From: Thermococci archaeon
GTDB lineage: Archaea; Methanobacteriota_B; Thermococci; Thermococcales; Thermococcaceae
Assembly (NCBI GenBank): GCA_003663525.1
Contig: QMUF01000038.1
Location: 1 to 12,351 of the forward strand
Direction: 5' to 3'
DNA: 12,351 nucleotides
A program made the translations under genes and the position numbers. Position 1 is the first letter of the stretch; each line of letters opens with the position of its first letter. Shown piece by piece: positions 1-9,548 of the stretch. The notes beneath the pieces are model-generated. The model did not search any database, had not been told where the DNA came from, and was given only the letters and a program-made list of their open reading frames with translations.

Positions 1-917
1 ACATAAGCCACATGCCATTTGGAGCTGCTGGTATGAGAGGACTAGAAGTTCACACATGGCCTTTTGATAACGACGAATTTAACATTGATGTTGACAAGGC
101 AGCCAAGATGATTAGAGAACTTGAGCCAAAGATAGTTGTTTTTGGTGGTTCATTATTCCCATTCCCACACCCAGTTAAGGAACTTGCACCTGTGGCAAAG
201 GAAGTTGGAGCCTTCGTAATGTACGATGCCGCACACGTTTTGGGATTAATAGGCGGGGGTCAGTTCCAAGACCCACTTAGAGAAGGGGCCGAGGTAGTAA
301 CATCCTCAACCCATAAGACCTTCCCCGGACCACAGGGTGGTGTTATACTCTACAAAGACCTTGGTGAGGCCACAGCAAAACTACAATGGGCAATCTTCCC
401 AGGTGTCCTGAGCAATCACCACTTGCACCACATGGCTGGAAAAGTCGTTACAGCTGCAGAGATGCTTGAATTCGGTAAAGCTTATGCAGAGCAGATTGTC
501 AAGAACGCAAAGGCCCTAGCTGAAGCAATGGCAGAAGAAGGGTTCAAAGTCATTGGTGAGGGCAAAGGATACACCAAGAGTCACCAAGTAATAGTTGATG
601 TAAGCGAACTCCATGAAGCTGGTGGAGGATGGGCCGCTCCACTCTTGGAAGAAGCGGGTATAATCCTCAACAAGAACCTTCTCCCATGGGACCCACTTGA
701 AAAGGTCAACACTCCAAGCGGTCTAAGAATTGGTGTTCAAGAGATGACGAGAGTTGGAATGATGGAAGACGATATAAAGGAGATAGCAAGATTCATGAGA
801 AGAGTCCTTCTTGATAAAGAAGATCCAAAGAAAGTCGAAAAAGACGTCTTCGAGTTCAGAAAGCAATTCCAGAAGGTTTACTACTCCTTCGACTATGGCT
901 TGCCAATGAAAGAGTGA
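1..917 (+). CDS. glyA: Serine hydroxymethyltransferase, C-terminal part (5' end outside window)
   Basis: This is a PLP enzyme of fold type I that interconverts serine and glycine while moving a one-carbon unit to a folate or archaeal pterin carrier. The reading frame is open to the left edge (first full codon at 3), so the start lies upstream; the ATG at 12 is internal. About 304 residues are visible, against roughly 430 for the family. Counting from the Met at 12, MYDAAHVLGLIGGGQFQDP (70-88) holds the Asp and His that contact PLP, and TSSTHKTFPGPQGG (97-110) holds the Schiff-base lysine, K102, codon at 315-317. The C-terminal domain has SHQVIVDVS and GLRIGVQEMTR, both typical of SHMT. No defect is seen in the visible part. 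It lies in the same direction as the his operon but is separated by about 900 bases, so co-transcription is unlikely. Confidence 0.96.
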   Translation, partial: ISHMPFGAAGMRGLEVHTWPFDNDEFNIDVDKAAKMIRELEPKIVVFGGSLFPFPHPVKELAPVAKEVGAFVMYDAAHVLGLIGGGQFQDPLREGAEVVTSSTHKTFPGPQGGVILYKDLGEATAKLQWAIFPGVLSNHHLHHMAGKVVTAAEMLEFGKAYAEQIVKNAKALAEAMAEEGFKVIGEGKGYTKSHQVIVDVSELHEAGGGWAAPLLEEAGIILNKNLLPWDPLEKVNTPSGLRIGVQEMTRVGMMEDDIKEIARFMRRVLLDKEDPKKVEKDVFEFRKQFQKVYYSFDYGLPMKE

Positions 918-1770: not shown

Positions 1771-1779
1771 TTTATAAGG
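1771..1779 (+). promoter_or_regulatory. TATA box of the his operon
   Basis: TTTATAAGG is a good archaeal TATA box. A start about 25 bases downstream would fall near 1798-1802, just before the GGTGA ribosome-binding site (1803-1807) of the leader ORF at 1813. No other comparable promoter appears between here and hisZ, so the leader ORF and the his genes probably share this transcript. Confidence 0.65.
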
Positions 1780-1794: not shown

Positions 1795-1812
1795 CCCCCG
1801 TAGGTGAGCAAT

Positions 1813-1935
1813 ATGAAAGTTTGGAATGAAAACAGTACGAAAAACTTTGCAAATGTCCAAGATAGAGAAAATGTATTTTCAGTAGTTTGTATGGTGAACT
1901 ACTGCCATCATCATTGCCGGCTCTTCTATAATTGA
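1813..1935 (+). CDS. Small leader ORF with three consecutive His codons
   Basis: This 40-codon ORF starts at ATG 1813, preceded by GGTGA at 1803-1807 with five-base spacing, and follows a TATA box at the right distance, so translation is likely. It begins MKVWNENSTKNF and ends MVNYCHHHCRLFYN; the three CAT codons are at 1906-1914 and the stop is TGA at 1933-1935. It sits 62 bases before hisZ, the first gene of the histidine operon. A His run in a short ORF at this place matches the logic of bacterial his leader peptides, where ribosome stalling at His codons senses charged tRNA-His. Attenuation of this kind is not something I know as established for archaeal his operons, so the role is inference. 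The other reading is a tiny Cys/His metal-binding protein (C-HHH-C). Confidence 0.55.
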   Translation: MKVWNENSTKNFANVQDRENVFSVVCMVNYCHHHCRLFYN

Positions 1936-1954: not shown

Positions 1955-1997
1955 TTGAAGTTGAAATCCATTTTAAAACTCACAGGAGGGGATTTTT

Positions 1998-2888
1998 TTG
2001 AAAAAAGACCTATTTTCCGAATCAGTTAGGTTAGCGTATATTGTAAAAGACCTAAGAAGAACCTTTGAGCTTTGGGGATATAAGGAGATATTCCTACCTA
2101 GTGTGGAAGAATATTCCCCTAATTTAAGGAAGGGTACAAAGTTTGCATATAACAATAAATTCTACATGTTTAAACCAGACCCCACATCGCAAATCCTAGC
2201 AAATTTAAAAGAGAGAAGAGAGCTAAAGATTTATTACATCCTTGAGGTTCTCAACGGAGCCACAAAGGGAGAATGGCAAGCTGGAATTGAGTTCATTGGC
2301 GGAAATGATTTGATGGTACAGGTTGAAGGAATATTAGTTGCAATAACAGCATTGGAAAGTCTCGGCATAAACGAGTTCTATATTGATGTGGGCAGTTTGG
2401 AAGTGTGGAAAAGAGCTCTGAAGGAAATAGAAGAGTATAAACCCCAGATAATTACTGCATTAAGTAGACGAAACTTTGAAGAAATAGAAAGCCTCCCTAT
2501 ATCTTCAGCAAAAAAGGAAGAACTTTGGAAGCTTTTCAACTTCAGAGGAAAGAAGTGTGAATACCAAAAGCTAAACAAGATAATTGAAGCAATCAACGAC
2601 AAAAGGGTTTTTGTGGATTTCGGTACCATGAGAATCCTCCCCTATTATAGTGATATTATCTTCGAAGTATACTCACCAAAATTTGGAAAACCTATTGGAG
2701 GCGGGGGGGAATACGAGATTAAAGGCATGAAAGCATTTGGATTTGCTTTTAACTTAAAAGCCATTCTAAAGCTTTACGAAGGAGATCTAGAAAAAACAAG
2801 GAAAATTATTAGTGGCGACCTTAAAGAGGCCTATAACAAAGCAAAACAGTTTGTAAGCCTTGGTATACCAGTGAAGGTGAGAAAATGA
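1998..2888 (+). CDS. hisZ: HisZ, regulatory subunit of ATP phosphoribosyltransferase
   Basis: HisZ is a histidyl-tRNA-synthetase paralogue that lost aminoacylation and forms a hetero-oligomer with short-form HisG, which needs it for activity and histidine feedback. The 296 residues cover a class II synthetase catalytic-like core only. [17 protein letters not shown] (23-39) is like motif 1, [10 protein letters not shown] (58-67) and QAGIEFIGG (94-102) are the motif 2 region, and GGGGEYE (234-240) with GFAFNL (248-253) is like motif 3. There is no C-terminal anticodon-binding domain, which separates it from true HisRS. The start is TTG 1998, chosen because AGGAGGGG (1984-1991) precedes it by a good distance and no ATG is available there. 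It overlaps hisG by four bases (ATGA). A possible stem, GAAATCC (1963-1969) with GGATTTT (1990-1996), would place the ribosome-binding site in its loop. Confidence 0.9.
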
Positions 2889-3502
2889 GATTTGTTCTTC
2901 CAAAAGGCCGTCTTTTAACAGGCTCTGTGGAGATATTACAAAAAGCTGGTATAGAGGTAAGACCACCCCAGGGTCGCGAATTAATAACTAAAAATGGAGA
3001 ATACAGCTTTTTGCTTGCAAAATCCTTCGATGTTCCAGTTTATGTGGAGCATGGAATCGACATTGGCATTGCTGGAAATGATATTGTAGAAGAGAGAGAA
3101 AGCGACGTGTTTGTTCCTCTTGAACTCCCCTTTGGTAAATGTAGACTTAGCCTAGCCATCCCAAAGGAAAAAAGTGTAAAAGTTGAAGAAATGGATGGAT
3201 TTAGAATTGCTACCAAGTACACTAACCTTACTAGAAAATTCTTTGATAAAAGAGGTATCGAAGTAGAGATAATAAAACTACACGGAAGCATTGAACTAGC
3301 TCCAAAAATTGGAATAGCTGATGCCATAGTTGATATTGTTGAAACTGGAAATACCTTACTGGCGAATGACCTAATTGAATTGGAAAAAATAATGGATATT
3401 TCAGCAGTTCTAATAGTAAATAGAATATCTCAAAAAACTAGATTTGAAGAGATTAATGACCTTATTTTAAAACTTAAGGGAGTTGTTGAAGATGGATTTT
3501 GA
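2885..3502 (+). CDS. hisG: ATP phosphoribosyltransferase, short-form catalytic subunit
   Basis: HisG joins PRPP and ATP to give phosphoribosyl-ATP, the committed step of histidine synthesis. At 205 residues it is the short form without the C-terminal regulatory domain, which agrees with hisZ next to it. Diagnostic segments are [10 protein letters not shown] (1-10), [12 protein letters not shown] (59-70) and the family signature ending [21 protein letters not shown] (about 143-163), which includes the PRPP-binding loop. It starts inside the hisZ stop (ATGA at 2885-2888) and its end overlaps the start of hisD by 11 bases, so translational coupling on both sides is likely. Like hisZ, it is clearly more AT-rich than hisD and the genes after it. 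Confidence 0.95.
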
Positions 3503-5744: not shown

Positions 5745-6434
5745 ATGAGGGTTTACCCTGCAATAGATTTAATGAGCGGGAAAGCTGTGAGGCTCTACAA
5801 GGGCAAAAAAGAGAGCGTAAAAGTTTATGGAGATCCAGTAGAGATAGCTAAGGATTTTGCCAAGCTTGTGGACAAAATCCACATAGTGGACTTGGATGGA
5901 GCCTTTGAAGGAAAGCCAAAGAACCTTGATGTCGTGAGGAGAATAATAAAGGAAACTGGGTTGAAGGTTCAAGTAGGTGGAGGCTTTAGGGACTATGAGA
6001 GCATAGCGAAAGCCTACTCAATTGGCGTTGAGAACGTCATAATAGGAACGAAAGCCTTTGATTTGAAGTTTTTAGAAAAGGTAACGCAGGATTTTGAAGG
6101 AATAACTGTAAGCTTAGATGCCAGAGGCGGAAGGATAGCTGTAAAAGGCTGGGAGGAGGAGAGCTCTATAACCGTTGAAGAGGCTTACGAGATGCTCAAA
6201 AAGTACATTAATAGGTTCATTTACACGGCAATCGAAAGGGATGGCACCTTGATGGGAATTGAAAAGATTAATCGCTTTTGGGATGGAGAAGAGGTTATCT
6301 ACGCTGGGGGCGTCTCAAGCGTAAGCGATGTACTAAAGCTTAGAGAGATTGGATTCTCTGGGGCTATAGTGGGGAAAGCCCTCTACGAGGGTAAAGTTAC
6401 TTTAGAAGAGCTGTTAAATGTCTTAGGTGATTGA
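5745..6434 (+). CDS. hisA: ProFAR isomerase (phosphoribosylformimino-AICAR isomerase)
   Basis: HisA carries out the Amadori rearrangement of ProFAR to PRFAR, the HisF substrate. It is a (beta/alpha)8 barrel of 229 residues. The catalytic aspartates are in place: D8 (YPAIDLMSG) at the end of strand 1 and D125 (VSLDARGGRIAVKGW) at strand 5. Phosphate-binding glycines are seen at QVGGGFRD (76-83) and YAGGVSSV near 187. TAIERDGTLMG (161-171) is the conserved strand 6 loop. AGGAGG lies seven bases before the ATG. The end of the gene carries AGGTGA (6425-6430), which serves hisF. The sequence and length are normal. Confidence 0.95.
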   Translation: MRVYPAIDLMSGKAVRLYKGKKESVKVYGDPVEIAKDFAKLVDKIHIVDLDGAFEGKPKNLDVVRRIIKETGLKVQVGGGFRDYESIAKAYSIGVENVIIGTKAFDLKFLEKVTQDFEGITVSLDARGGRIAVKGWEEESSITVEEAYEMLKKYINRFIYTAIERDGTLMGIEKINRFWDGEEVIYAGGVSSVSDVLKLREIGFSGAIVGKALYEGKVTLEELLNVLGD

Positions 6435-6435
6435 G

Positions 6436-7191
6436 ATGTTAGCTAAAAGAATTATCGCTGCCTTGGACATAAAAGAGGGGAGAGTTGTAAAGGGGATAAA
6501 GTTTCAGAATATCAGAGACGCCGGAGACCCAATAGAGCTGGCAAAGCGCTATGAGGAGGAGGGAATAGACGAGATAGTTTTCCTTGACATTACTGCATCT
6601 TACGAAAAGAGGCAAATTCTCCTCGATTTGGTAAAGAGGATAGCCGAGGAGATTTACGTTCCTTTCACGGTTGGTGGGGGGATTAAGAGCATCGAGGAGA
6701 TTAGAGAGATAATAAAGAGCGGTGCCGATAAGGTTTTCCTCAACACGGCGGCTGTTGACAATCCAGTGCTTGTAAGTGAAGTAGCAAAAGTTGTTGGGAG
6801 TGCGAATTTAGTCATAGCAATTGATGCAAAGTGGAACGGCAAATTTTGGGAGGTTTATACGCATGGAGGAAGAAAAGCGAGAGGGATAAATGCAGTAGAG
6901 TGGGCTAAAGAGGTCGAGTGTTTGGGAGCGGGTGAGATTTTGCTCACTTCTATGGGCACGGACGGGACACAGGAAGGCTTTGACATCCCCCTAACTTAAG
7001 CAATAGTCGAAGCTGTTGACATTCCCGTCATTGCCTCTGGAGGTGCTGGAAGCCCGGAGCACTTCTATGATGCATTTGAAATTGGTGCAAGCGCAGCTTT
7101 AGCTGCATCAATCTTTCACTATGGGAAATACACCGTTAGGGAGCTTAAGGAGTATTTGGCGAGGAGGGGTATGAATGTCAGACTTGAATGA
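6436..7191 (+). pseudogene. hisF: Imidazole glycerol phosphate synthase cyclase, interrupted by an in-frame TAA
   Basis: HisF converts PRFAR and ammonia to imidazole-glycerol phosphate and AICAR. From ATG 6436 (AGGTGA at 6425-6430; an in-frame GTG at 6427 is less likely) the protein shows MLAKRIIAALDIKEGR with catalytic D11, TVGGGI (78-83), and VIAIDAKWNG with catalytic D130. At codon 188 (6997-6999) there is TAA, right after GFDIPLT, where the family usually has a residue such as Lys. The same frame then continues without a gap as [20 protein letters not shown] and on to TGA at 7189-7191, which is normal strands 7-8 and the phosphate-binding ASGGAG. Full length would be 251 residues. The truncated 187-residue product lacks the last quarter of the barrel and should be inactive. 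[10 protein letters not shown] (169-178) is also a little unusual, since position 174 is often Asp or Asn. A single AAA/AAG-to-TAA change or a sequencing error would explain it. Confidence 0.9.
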
Positions 7192-7807: not shown

Positions 7808-8808
7808 GAATTAGAGAGATAGTTAAAGCTTTCGAGTCCTATAAAGTTGTTGAAGGGAACTACAGAATTTGGCTCGATAAGAATGAGAATCCTTTTGATG
7901 TCCCGACAGAGATTAAGGAAGAGATCTTCGAAGAGCTTAAAAATGTCCCTTTCAACCGCTATCCACACATCACCGCTGATCCTTTAAGAGAGAGGATAGC
8001 CGAGTTTTTGGGGTTTGAAAAGGAAAACGTAATCGTTGGGAACGGGAGCGACGAACTGATAAGCCTACTTTTGAAGCTCTTCGAAGGTGACCACATAGTC
8101 ATAAGCTCCCCGACCTTTGGAATGTATGACTTCTTTGCAAAGCTTGAGGGAATTGATTTAGTTGATGTCCCATTGGATGAGCGCTTTAAGCTCCAGAACG
8201 TCGAGGACTACGCGGAAAATGCCAAGGCTATCTTTATCTGCTCTCCAAACAACCCCACAGGCAACACTCAAGAGGGGGAAAAGATAATAAGCGTCCTTGA
8301 AACCGGCGCTCCCGTGATCTTGGATGAAGCGTACATAGAGTTTGCAGAGGGCAGTAACGTTGATTTGATTAATGAGTATGATAATCTGATAGTTTTGAGG
8401 ACATTTTCAAAGGCTTTTGGATTAGCTGGAATTAGAGTTGGTTATGCTGTTGGGAGTGAGGAAATAATAAACTATCTTTTACGTATTAAGCCGCCTTTCA
8501 GCTTAAATGTCATTTCAATGAAGATAGCAGAGCTTATGCTTGACCATTATGATGTAATTAAACAAAACATCAATTACATAATTAAAGAGCGCGAGCGCAT
8601 CTATAAAGAATTCAAAGAGTACGCATATCCAAGCGAGGCAAACTTTCTGCTTATGCGCCTGAACGCCTATGAATTCCTTCTTGAGAGGGGCATTGTTGTG
8701 AGAAAGCTCGGCGGAAGGCTGGACGGCCACATAAGAGTTACCATCGGCAAAAAGGAGGAAAACGATGAGCTGATTAAAGCTTTGAAAGAATTCTTGGAGG
8801 TTAAATAA
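7804..8808 (+). CDS. hisC: Histidinol-phosphate aminotransferase
   Basis: HisC is a PLP enzyme moving an amino group from glutamate to imidazole-acetol phosphate. The 334 residues include GNGSDELI (79-86), [10 protein letters not shown] (102-111), SPNNPTGN (147-154), LDEAYIEF (173-180; D174 contacts the PLP ring nitrogen, Y177 its hydroxyl) and [16 protein letters not shown] (200-215), where K203 forms the Schiff base. Near the C-terminus GHIRVTIG carries the arginine that binds the substrate carboxylate. The start is GTG 7804 in a GTGA overlap with hisI. The last codons contain GGAGGT (8796-8801), the ribosome-binding site for the next gene, which begins in a TAATG overlap. Confidence 0.95.
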
Positions 8809-9548
8809 TGAAAAAACTAAAATGGTTAATCTTTGATGTTGACGGTGTTTTGATTAATGTTACTGAGAGCTATGACTTAGCGACAAAGCTCACGGTGGAG
8901 TATTTTCTAAAAAAGCTTGGCAAAAACATTGAAGTTGACTTAGAGTTAATAAGGGCATTAAGAAAAAAAGGCGCTTTTGGAGATGATTTTAAAGTTAGTG
9001 AAGCTTTAATGTCTGGTGCTTTAAATGGAAAGTTAAGTGATTTTGTTGAGAGCTTTCCAGAGGGAGAGGGGATTAAGTGGGTTAGAGAAAAATTTGGAAT
9101 TATTGTTAAGTCAGAAGAAATTGAGAGAGTTTTTAATACCTTTTATCTTGGTGAGTATTATAAAGAGAGACCTTTTGATTTTGATGGCCTATGGAAGAAA
9201 GAGAAACCGATAGTTAAGAAAAAGCTCCTAGAAAGAGCAAGTGAAAAGTTTAAGCTTGGTGTTATAACCGGAAGAAATAGACTTGAGCTTAAATTAGCCG
9301 AAGAACTCATTGGCTTCCACTTTGAAAGTGCGGTTACAAGAGAGCTTTATATTAAACCAGATCCAAAAGCTCTTTGGCATCTGGTTAGAGGAGAAAATGG
9401 AGCTTATATTGGTGATACGGTGAACGATGGCCTTTTGGTGGAGAACTACAAAAAAGAATACGGAAAGGATTTTGAGTTTATGATGATTGGCAGGGATGCC
9501 AAAGACGTGAATAATGCTATAGAAGGACTACTAGAGAAGCGGATGTGA
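8808..9548 (+). CDS. HAD-family phosphatase; candidate histidinol-phosphate phosphatase
   Basis: This is a haloacid-dehalogenase-type hydrolase of 246 residues. All four HAD motifs are visible: IFDVDGVL (8-15; nucleophile D10, acid/base D12), VITGR (152-156; T154), the Lys of YIKPDP (K183), and GDTVNDG (202-208; D203 and D207 for Mg). A helical cap fills roughly 20-145 after motif I (subfamily I layout). HAD proteins of this group occur beside or fused to his enzymes in some archaea and cyanobacteria. The usual HisB-N, PHP-type or HisN-type phosphatase is absent from this operon, so this gene is the natural candidate for histidinol-phosphate dephosphorylation. The evidence is positional plus family; the substrate is not proven. 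Its start overlaps the hisC stop by one base (TAATG). It is noticeably more AT-rich than hisC. Confidence 0.8.
   Translation: MKKLKWLIFDVDGVLINVTESYDLATKLTVEYFLKKLGKNIEVDLELIRALRKKGAFGDDFKVSEALMSGALNGKLSDFVESFPEGEGIKWVREKFGIIVKSEEIERVFNTFYLGEYYKERPFDFDGLWKKEKPIVKKKLLERASEKFKLGVITGRNRLELKLAEELIGFHFESAVTRELYIKPDPKALWHLVRGENGAYIGDTVNDGLLVENYKKEYGKDFEFMMIGRDAKDVNNAIEGLLEKRM

Follow-up and report, generated by a model that had tools for sequence, protein, structure and literature searches.

The his locus and its leader ORF

The window, by which is meant the whole 12,351-nt stretch of Thermococci archaeon DNA analyzed here, carries a set of histidine biosynthesis genes preceded by a short ORF. The first of the his genes, hisZ (1998-2888, forward strand), matches Pfam family PF13393 (tRNA-synt_His, 1.6e-27) and NCBIfam model TIGR00443 (hisZ_biosyn_reg, 2.3e-36, a score below the curated cut-off), and it overlaps by 4 nt with hisG (2885-3502, forward strand), which matches PF01634 (HisG, 2.6e-54) and TIGR00070, the latter over its cut-off. 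Family models likewise support hisD. The hisF gene (6427-7175) contains an in-frame TAA (6997-6999) after 190 codons, behind which HisF-like sequence continues in the same frame; this stop may reflect either an error in the draft genome or a broken gene. Located 3' of hisC, at positions 8808-9548, is a gene for a HAD-like hydrolase (PF00702, 9e-7) whose product could be the histidinol-phosphate phosphatase.

A first-pass annotation of this DNA had drawn attention to the region ahead of hisZ, where it described a TATA box, a GGTGA ribosome-binding site and an ATG for a 40-codon ORF ending 62 bases before hisZ, with three adjacent CAT codons inside it. Reexamination of the sequence bears out each of these elements. 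The TATA-like box (TTTATAAG, 1771-1778, forward strand) is the putative promoter of both the ORF and the his genes, with transcription probably starting near position 1800, and the GGTGA at 1803-1807 (forward strand) pairs with the 3' end of 16S rRNA, GATCACCTCCT, as read in three relatives. The ORF itself (1813-1935, forward strand) runs for 40 codons from an ATG at 1813-1815 to a TGA at 1933-1935, and its product has the C-terminal end NYCHHHCRLFYN. Within it, on the same strand, lie a second GGTGA (1893-1897) resembling a Shine-Dalgarno (SD) sequence, then, exactly 8 nt further on, the first codon of the His run CAT CAT CAT (1906-1914), and then the heptamer CTCTTCT (1921-1927), which belongs to a class of sequences termed here the post-His element. 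A gap of 62 nt separates the end of the ORF from the TTG start codon of hisZ at 1998, whose SD sequence, AGGAGGGGA (1984-1992, forward strand), forms with it the best SD/start pair by duplex energy. Seven T's (1993-1999) lead from this SD sequence into the TTG; the stretch is kept in two relatives (G076 and G080), is interrupted by a C in a third (G084), and is not general in the family.

These three relatives, the closest by hisG, also differ from the window at the codon 3' of the His run, which is TGA in all three and TGC in the window. With TGC in place of TGA, the window ORF is 6 codons longer and passes through the post-His element. The window genome is a draft in 220 contigs, and a sequence error at the TGC is therefore possible.

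Conservation across the Thermococcaceae

A search of 94 Thermococcaceae genomes recovered hisG in 47. One of these loci (G088) was left out, its hisG being cut at a contig edge such that the upstream region is not readable, and one other (G091) was counted, its contig retaining the leader and the start of hisZ and ending before hisG, which brings the total of readable loci to 47. This total comprises a first set of 45 loci together with L113 (G058) and L114 (G091), both of which enter only the 47-locus counts; the pairing, start, SD-null and masking tests were carried out with the 45 loci or with 19 representatives, selected by greedy filtering at 75% identity across the spacer together with the end of the leader. 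As the genomes compared are related to one another, all counts are to be taken accordingly.

A short ORF ending in two to four adjacent His codons lies upstream of hisZ in all 47 readable his loci, and the conservation among relatives that the first-pass annotation had proposed looking for is thus found throughout the family. The run comprises two His codons in 23 loci, three in 23, and four in one. A start codon, an SD sequence and an open frame 12-40 codons long were assigned in 45 of 45 scored loci, by a procedure that gives a bonus to ATG; the shortest leader, at 12 codons, is that of L036, whose predicted start is poor. Upstream, a TATA-like 8-mer with at most one mismatch to a loose consensus was present in 39 of 45 loci. 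The spacer between leader and hisZ measures 24-80 nt (45 loci; 72 nt in L024), and in most of one group of loci (L012-L019 and L022) it holds a second purine-rich, SD-like stretch with a T run behind it (e.g. GCAGGGGATATTTT), ahead of the hisZ SD sequence.

The leader is also closely tied to his genes. A first search pattern, CAYCAYN{0,9}CYNTTCT, was too loose, matching in 94 of 94 genomes, and gave way to a 48-position sequence model built from 23 motif sequences. At E<=0.05 this model matches in 43 of the 94 genomes, 42 of them at the his-locus leader (39 with E<=1e-4), and no match with E<=1e-4 was found away from his loci in the 94 genomes. The weak matches consist of one in G016 (E=0.042), a genome without a hisG match, and two further off-locus matches (E=0.0036 and 0.03), both from genomes that have his genes; among genomes without hisG, only G016 and G091, the latter with the truncated contig described above, have any match. 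Five diverged leaders escape the model and are visible on inspection (G009, G019, G033, G050 and G066). Extending the search to 115 genomes of the phylum added only weak matches (E 0.008-0.046), spread over five genomes that do not belong to the Thermococcaceae, and two Thermoplasmatota loci with the hisZ-hisG gene order carry no His-rich short ORF upstream; a third locus there has other neighbors.

Among ORFs with at least two Trp codons in the 350 nt upstream of 15 trpC loci over the family cut-off, no Trp-rich leader is common to the loci, and a leader mechanism general beyond his is therefore not shown. At four of the loci searched (L083, L089, L090 and L091), a short ORF encoding GDGFWP or GDGFWI overlaps the trpC start in another frame, probably as a side effect of conservation at the beginning of TrpC. 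A probe for branched-chain synthesis, PF07991, gave only weak matches (46 bits or less) in the 13 genomes of the same genus.

Conservation of an open frame with a start in every scored locus would also be expected if the leader product were a functional small protein, for instance one that binds metal through its Cys and His residues. Most of the peptide drifts, however, its length varies from 12 to 40 codons, the Cys is kept in only 25 of 45 loci, no Pfam or NCBIfam model matches the leader peptide, and several of the conserved positions act on the nucleotide level, as described below. With this sequence drift and the variable residues flanking the His run, the small-protein reading was rejected, and it is the least probable of the explanations considered.

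Nucleotide-level constraint around the His codons

Three features around the His run are constrained beyond what the encoded peptide would explain. The first is codon choice. The leaders of the 47 loci use CAT for 115 of their 119 His codons and CAC for 4, as compared with 14 CAT and 59 CAC codons in hisZ and hisG (45 loci), a bias with a Fisher p of 5e-30 that is overstated since the loci are related.

The second feature is the internal SD-like site. GGTGA occurs 5' of the His run in 33 of 47 loci, and all 33 of these sites stand 8 nt ahead of the first His codon; affinity for the 3' end of 16S rRNA shows a sharp maximum at the site. When the peptides of the 19 representatives were recoded synonymously with the loci's own codon usage in 1000 draws, mean site strength averaged -2.49 +/- 0.47 kcal/mol as against -5.83 kcal/mol in the natural sequences, and 0 of the 1000 draws was as strong. 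GGTGA itself is present in 10 of the 19, whereas 1.1 are expected from the recodings and the maximum among them was 5. Random 12-nt windows from hisZ attain the mean strength with p=5e-5, and 26% of single random hisZ coding windows are as strong as -5. The site is weaker than -5 in 6 of the 19 representatives, and L036 and L038 lack any such site. The codon 5' of the conserved Val has G as its third base in 38 of 45 loci, even though the encoded amino acid varies.

The third feature is the post-His element, [CT][TCG]NTTCT (YBNTTCT), some form of which is present in 47 of 47 loci with the TTCT invariant, at a distance of 3, 6 or 9 nt from the last His codon (9, 31 and 7 loci, respectively). 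The element is kept whether a stop codon precedes it or comes after it. UGA directly follows the His run in 34 of 47 loci and is itself followed by C in 32; in L038 it lies one codon later. Where no UGA stands ahead of it, the element encodes Leu-Phe or Pro-Phe, and the Phe codon position reads TTC in 47 of 47 loci. As Phe usage in hisZ and hisG is mixed (467 TTT, 674 TTC), this invariance points to a constraint on the RNA or DNA. In L026, the frame continues beyond the leader TGA as LFWHH and a second stop (script coordinates 536-553, reverse strand), such that readthrough of the TGA would reach two more His codons.

Since several conserved positions act on the nucleotide level, one could suppose that the region is a non-coding element, either a regulator site or a small RNA, in which the ORF is incidental. 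This is very unlikely in light of the start, SD sequence and open frame found in all 45 scored loci by a procedure that favors ATG, and of the register of the conserved parts: the His run is in frame, and the distance from the run to the TTCT differs among all 47 loci by whole codons only.

The residues before the run raise another alternative. Val at -4 (37/45 loci), Ser at -3 (29/45) and Tyr at -2 (34/45) are partially conserved, as would suit an arrest peptide in which a hydrophobic stretch followed by VSYCHHH senses free histidine within the ribosome rather than charged tRNA. Yet the residue adjoining the run may be C, R, Y, L or F, much of the constraint sits on codon third bases, and sensing of tRNA is a simpler account of consecutive His codons. 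An arrest peptide thus appears improbable, if somewhat less so than an incidental ORF.

A probable his operon leader peptide

The sequence comparisons make a strong case that the ORF is real, family-wide and his-specific, with features directed at the ribosome. The best explanation, to which a probability of roughly three in four is assigned, is that the ORF at 1813-1935 encodes a leader peptide and forms the first cistron of the his operon, and that pausing of the ribosome in it alters the fate of the mRNA further downstream. It is likely that histidine supply controls the operon in this way, and translation of the leader, pausing upon His shortage and the direction of the effect are inferred.

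In the mechanism proposed, a ribosome would start at the leader SD sequence, read about 30 codons and arrive at the CAT run, 8 nt past the SD-like site, where rRNA could take hold of the mRNA just when the first His codon moves into the P site. At a spacing of 8 nt, the SD-like sequence would be placed much as on initiation, the first His codon occupying the P site and its neighbor the A site, which would be a natural arrangement for a pause dependent on tRNA-His. With charged tRNA-His in ample supply, the ribosome would pass and be released; with charged tRNA-His short, it would stay in place and cover the conserved bases just 3' of the run, and the fate of the downstream mRNA would shift in favor of hisZ and the genes coupled to it. 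A paused ribosome covers about 15 nt on either side, and with this reach a ribosome held at the run should cover the SD-like site as well as the post-His element, either wholly or at its 5' end. The readout thus probably begins with occlusion of this element, and biological sense suggests that pausing raises his expression. Two adjacent His codons, as found in 23 of the 47 loci, would be a short run for a sensor. In lineages where UGA stands between the His run and an in-frame CTN-TTC, it may act as a slow or leaky stop that forms part of the timing.

Possible routes from a paused ribosome to his expression

The first-pass annotation had likened the ORF to bacterial his leader peptides. The conservation, the CAT codons, the SD-like site at fixed spacing and the post-His element uphold the identification of a leader, while the hairpins and U-run terminator of the bacterial type were not found. 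Specifically, the spacers have no U-run terminator in common (the longest T run is 2-7 in the 19 representatives), consensus folds computed by group share no terminator, and no Rfam family matches in the window at its gathering score, with only chance-level matches at 1760-2020. A classical switch between terminator and antiterminator was accordingly rejected, no common hairpin with a U-run being present in the spacers or the group consensus folds, and attenuation in the narrow sense is only a candidate output. Two models of how the masked bases would act are considered, both of them variants of the leader peptide reading: they may pair with the hisZ SD sequence or be bound by a factor.

According to the first of these models, bases adjacent to the His codons pair with the hisZ SD sequence, and the paused ribosome breaks this pairing and frees hisZ for translation, as in translational attenuation. 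Pairing between the post-His region and the SD sequence exceeds that in shuffled sequences (p<=0.05) in 15 of 45 loci, including 9 of 9 in group B, for which one long consensus helix extends across the hisZ SD sequence; swapping partners within groups gave p=0.024 for group A and p=0.005 for group LF, all three groups having been defined after looking at the data. A stretch of the ORF from 24 to 10 nt 5' of the first His codon also complements the hisZ SD sequence (pooled p=0.001, the best of 7 windows). Against these signals stand the swap test over all 45 loci (p=0.20), over the 43 distinct ones (p=0.30) and within group B (p=0.35), and the pooled shuffle over the 19 representatives (p=0.11). 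Masking the ribosome's site brought no gain in SD access over masking upstream (7/19 at 37 C, 10/19 at 75 C), and pairing to the first 14 nt, dominant at 37 C in 10 of 45 loci, is so in 0 of 45 at 85 C, where none is stable. In 21 of 47 loci a purine, G or A, occupies the third position of the post-His element, which does not suit SD pairing, and the 7-bp pairing in Pyrococcus lies within the range of the shuffles (p 0.14-0.46). Because the overall swap, pooled shuffle and masking tests failed, hiding of the SD sequence was rejected as a family-wide rule and demoted to a rival explanation that fits some groups; as the general output it is doubtful.

The second model dispenses with RNA structure. 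A linear CUNUUCU after the His run might bind a termination factor, e.g. FttA (aCPSF1), or another RNA-binding protein, and the paused ribosome would cover it. This possibility, put forward tentatively, agrees with an element that is invariant at TTCT, free at N, within reach of the paused ribosome and retained with a stop codon on either side, and whose Phe codon is fixed as TTC at the level of RNA or DNA; a structure-free readout by a factor would suit both the free third base and high temperature. Both FttA and transcription-translation coupling exist in Thermococcus (PMC11616081, PMC8116511). The post-His element is short, however, and other work, to go by a title cited in PMC11616081, links FttA to U-rich stretches. 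A more speculative picture is that of a ribosome docked on SD-anchored His codons and covering a linear CUNUUCU signal, in a hairpin-free, factor-read arrangement that would work near boiling.

Known systems and biological meaning

Leader-peptide control of amino acid operons is a textbook bacterial mechanism. In hisL of Escherichia coli and Salmonella, a leader with seven His codons governs a hairpin terminator switch, and like it the archaeal leader is a short ORF with His codons that would form the first cistron ahead of his genes. The archaeal leader differs from the bacterial one in having two to four His codons, an SD-like anchor, no common U-run terminator and no Rfam match. TnaC, the leader of the tna operon in E. 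coli, is a sensor of free tryptophan that blocks Rho without RNA structure; the likeness is that a ribosome held at the end of the leader would sit on bases that a termination factor requires, and the difference is that free tryptophan and Rho are replaced by His codons and a putative factor. In the programmed frameshift of bacterial prfB, an internal SD-like sequence lies 3 nt from special codons. The archaeal leaders resemble it in the SD-like sequence at a fixed distance before special codons and in the UGA followed by C, but no slippery codon was seen in them and the spacing is 8 nt rather than 3. A further parallel is offered by translational attenuators such as the erm leaders, with which the archaeal leader would share the influence of a ribosome stalled in the leader ORF on the start site that follows. 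The erm leaders sense an antibiotic, and for the archaeal leader the hiding of an SD sequence is unsupported family-wide. Since the Thermococcaceae include genetically usable members, the leader is found in a family amenable to experiment.

A transcriptome study of T. kodakarensis stated in 2014 that direct experimental support for in vivo attenuators or riboswitches in Archaea was lacking (PMC4247193). The main texts of the transcriptome papers on P. furiosus (PMC6640164) and T. onnurineus (PMC5316973) contain neither 'histidine' nor 'attenuat', and a study of TK0271 has no passage on the his operon or on 'attenuat' (PMC6737238). Full-text searches of the open literature, subscription papers aside, brought up nothing that was recognized as this leader, although an earlier description may exist.

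If the proposed role holds true, it would mean ribosome-based sensing of an amino acid in Archaea, where FttA is present instead of Rho. A run of codons anchored by an SD-like sequence would then provide a means of sensing charged tRNA at high temperature without recourse to RNA structure.
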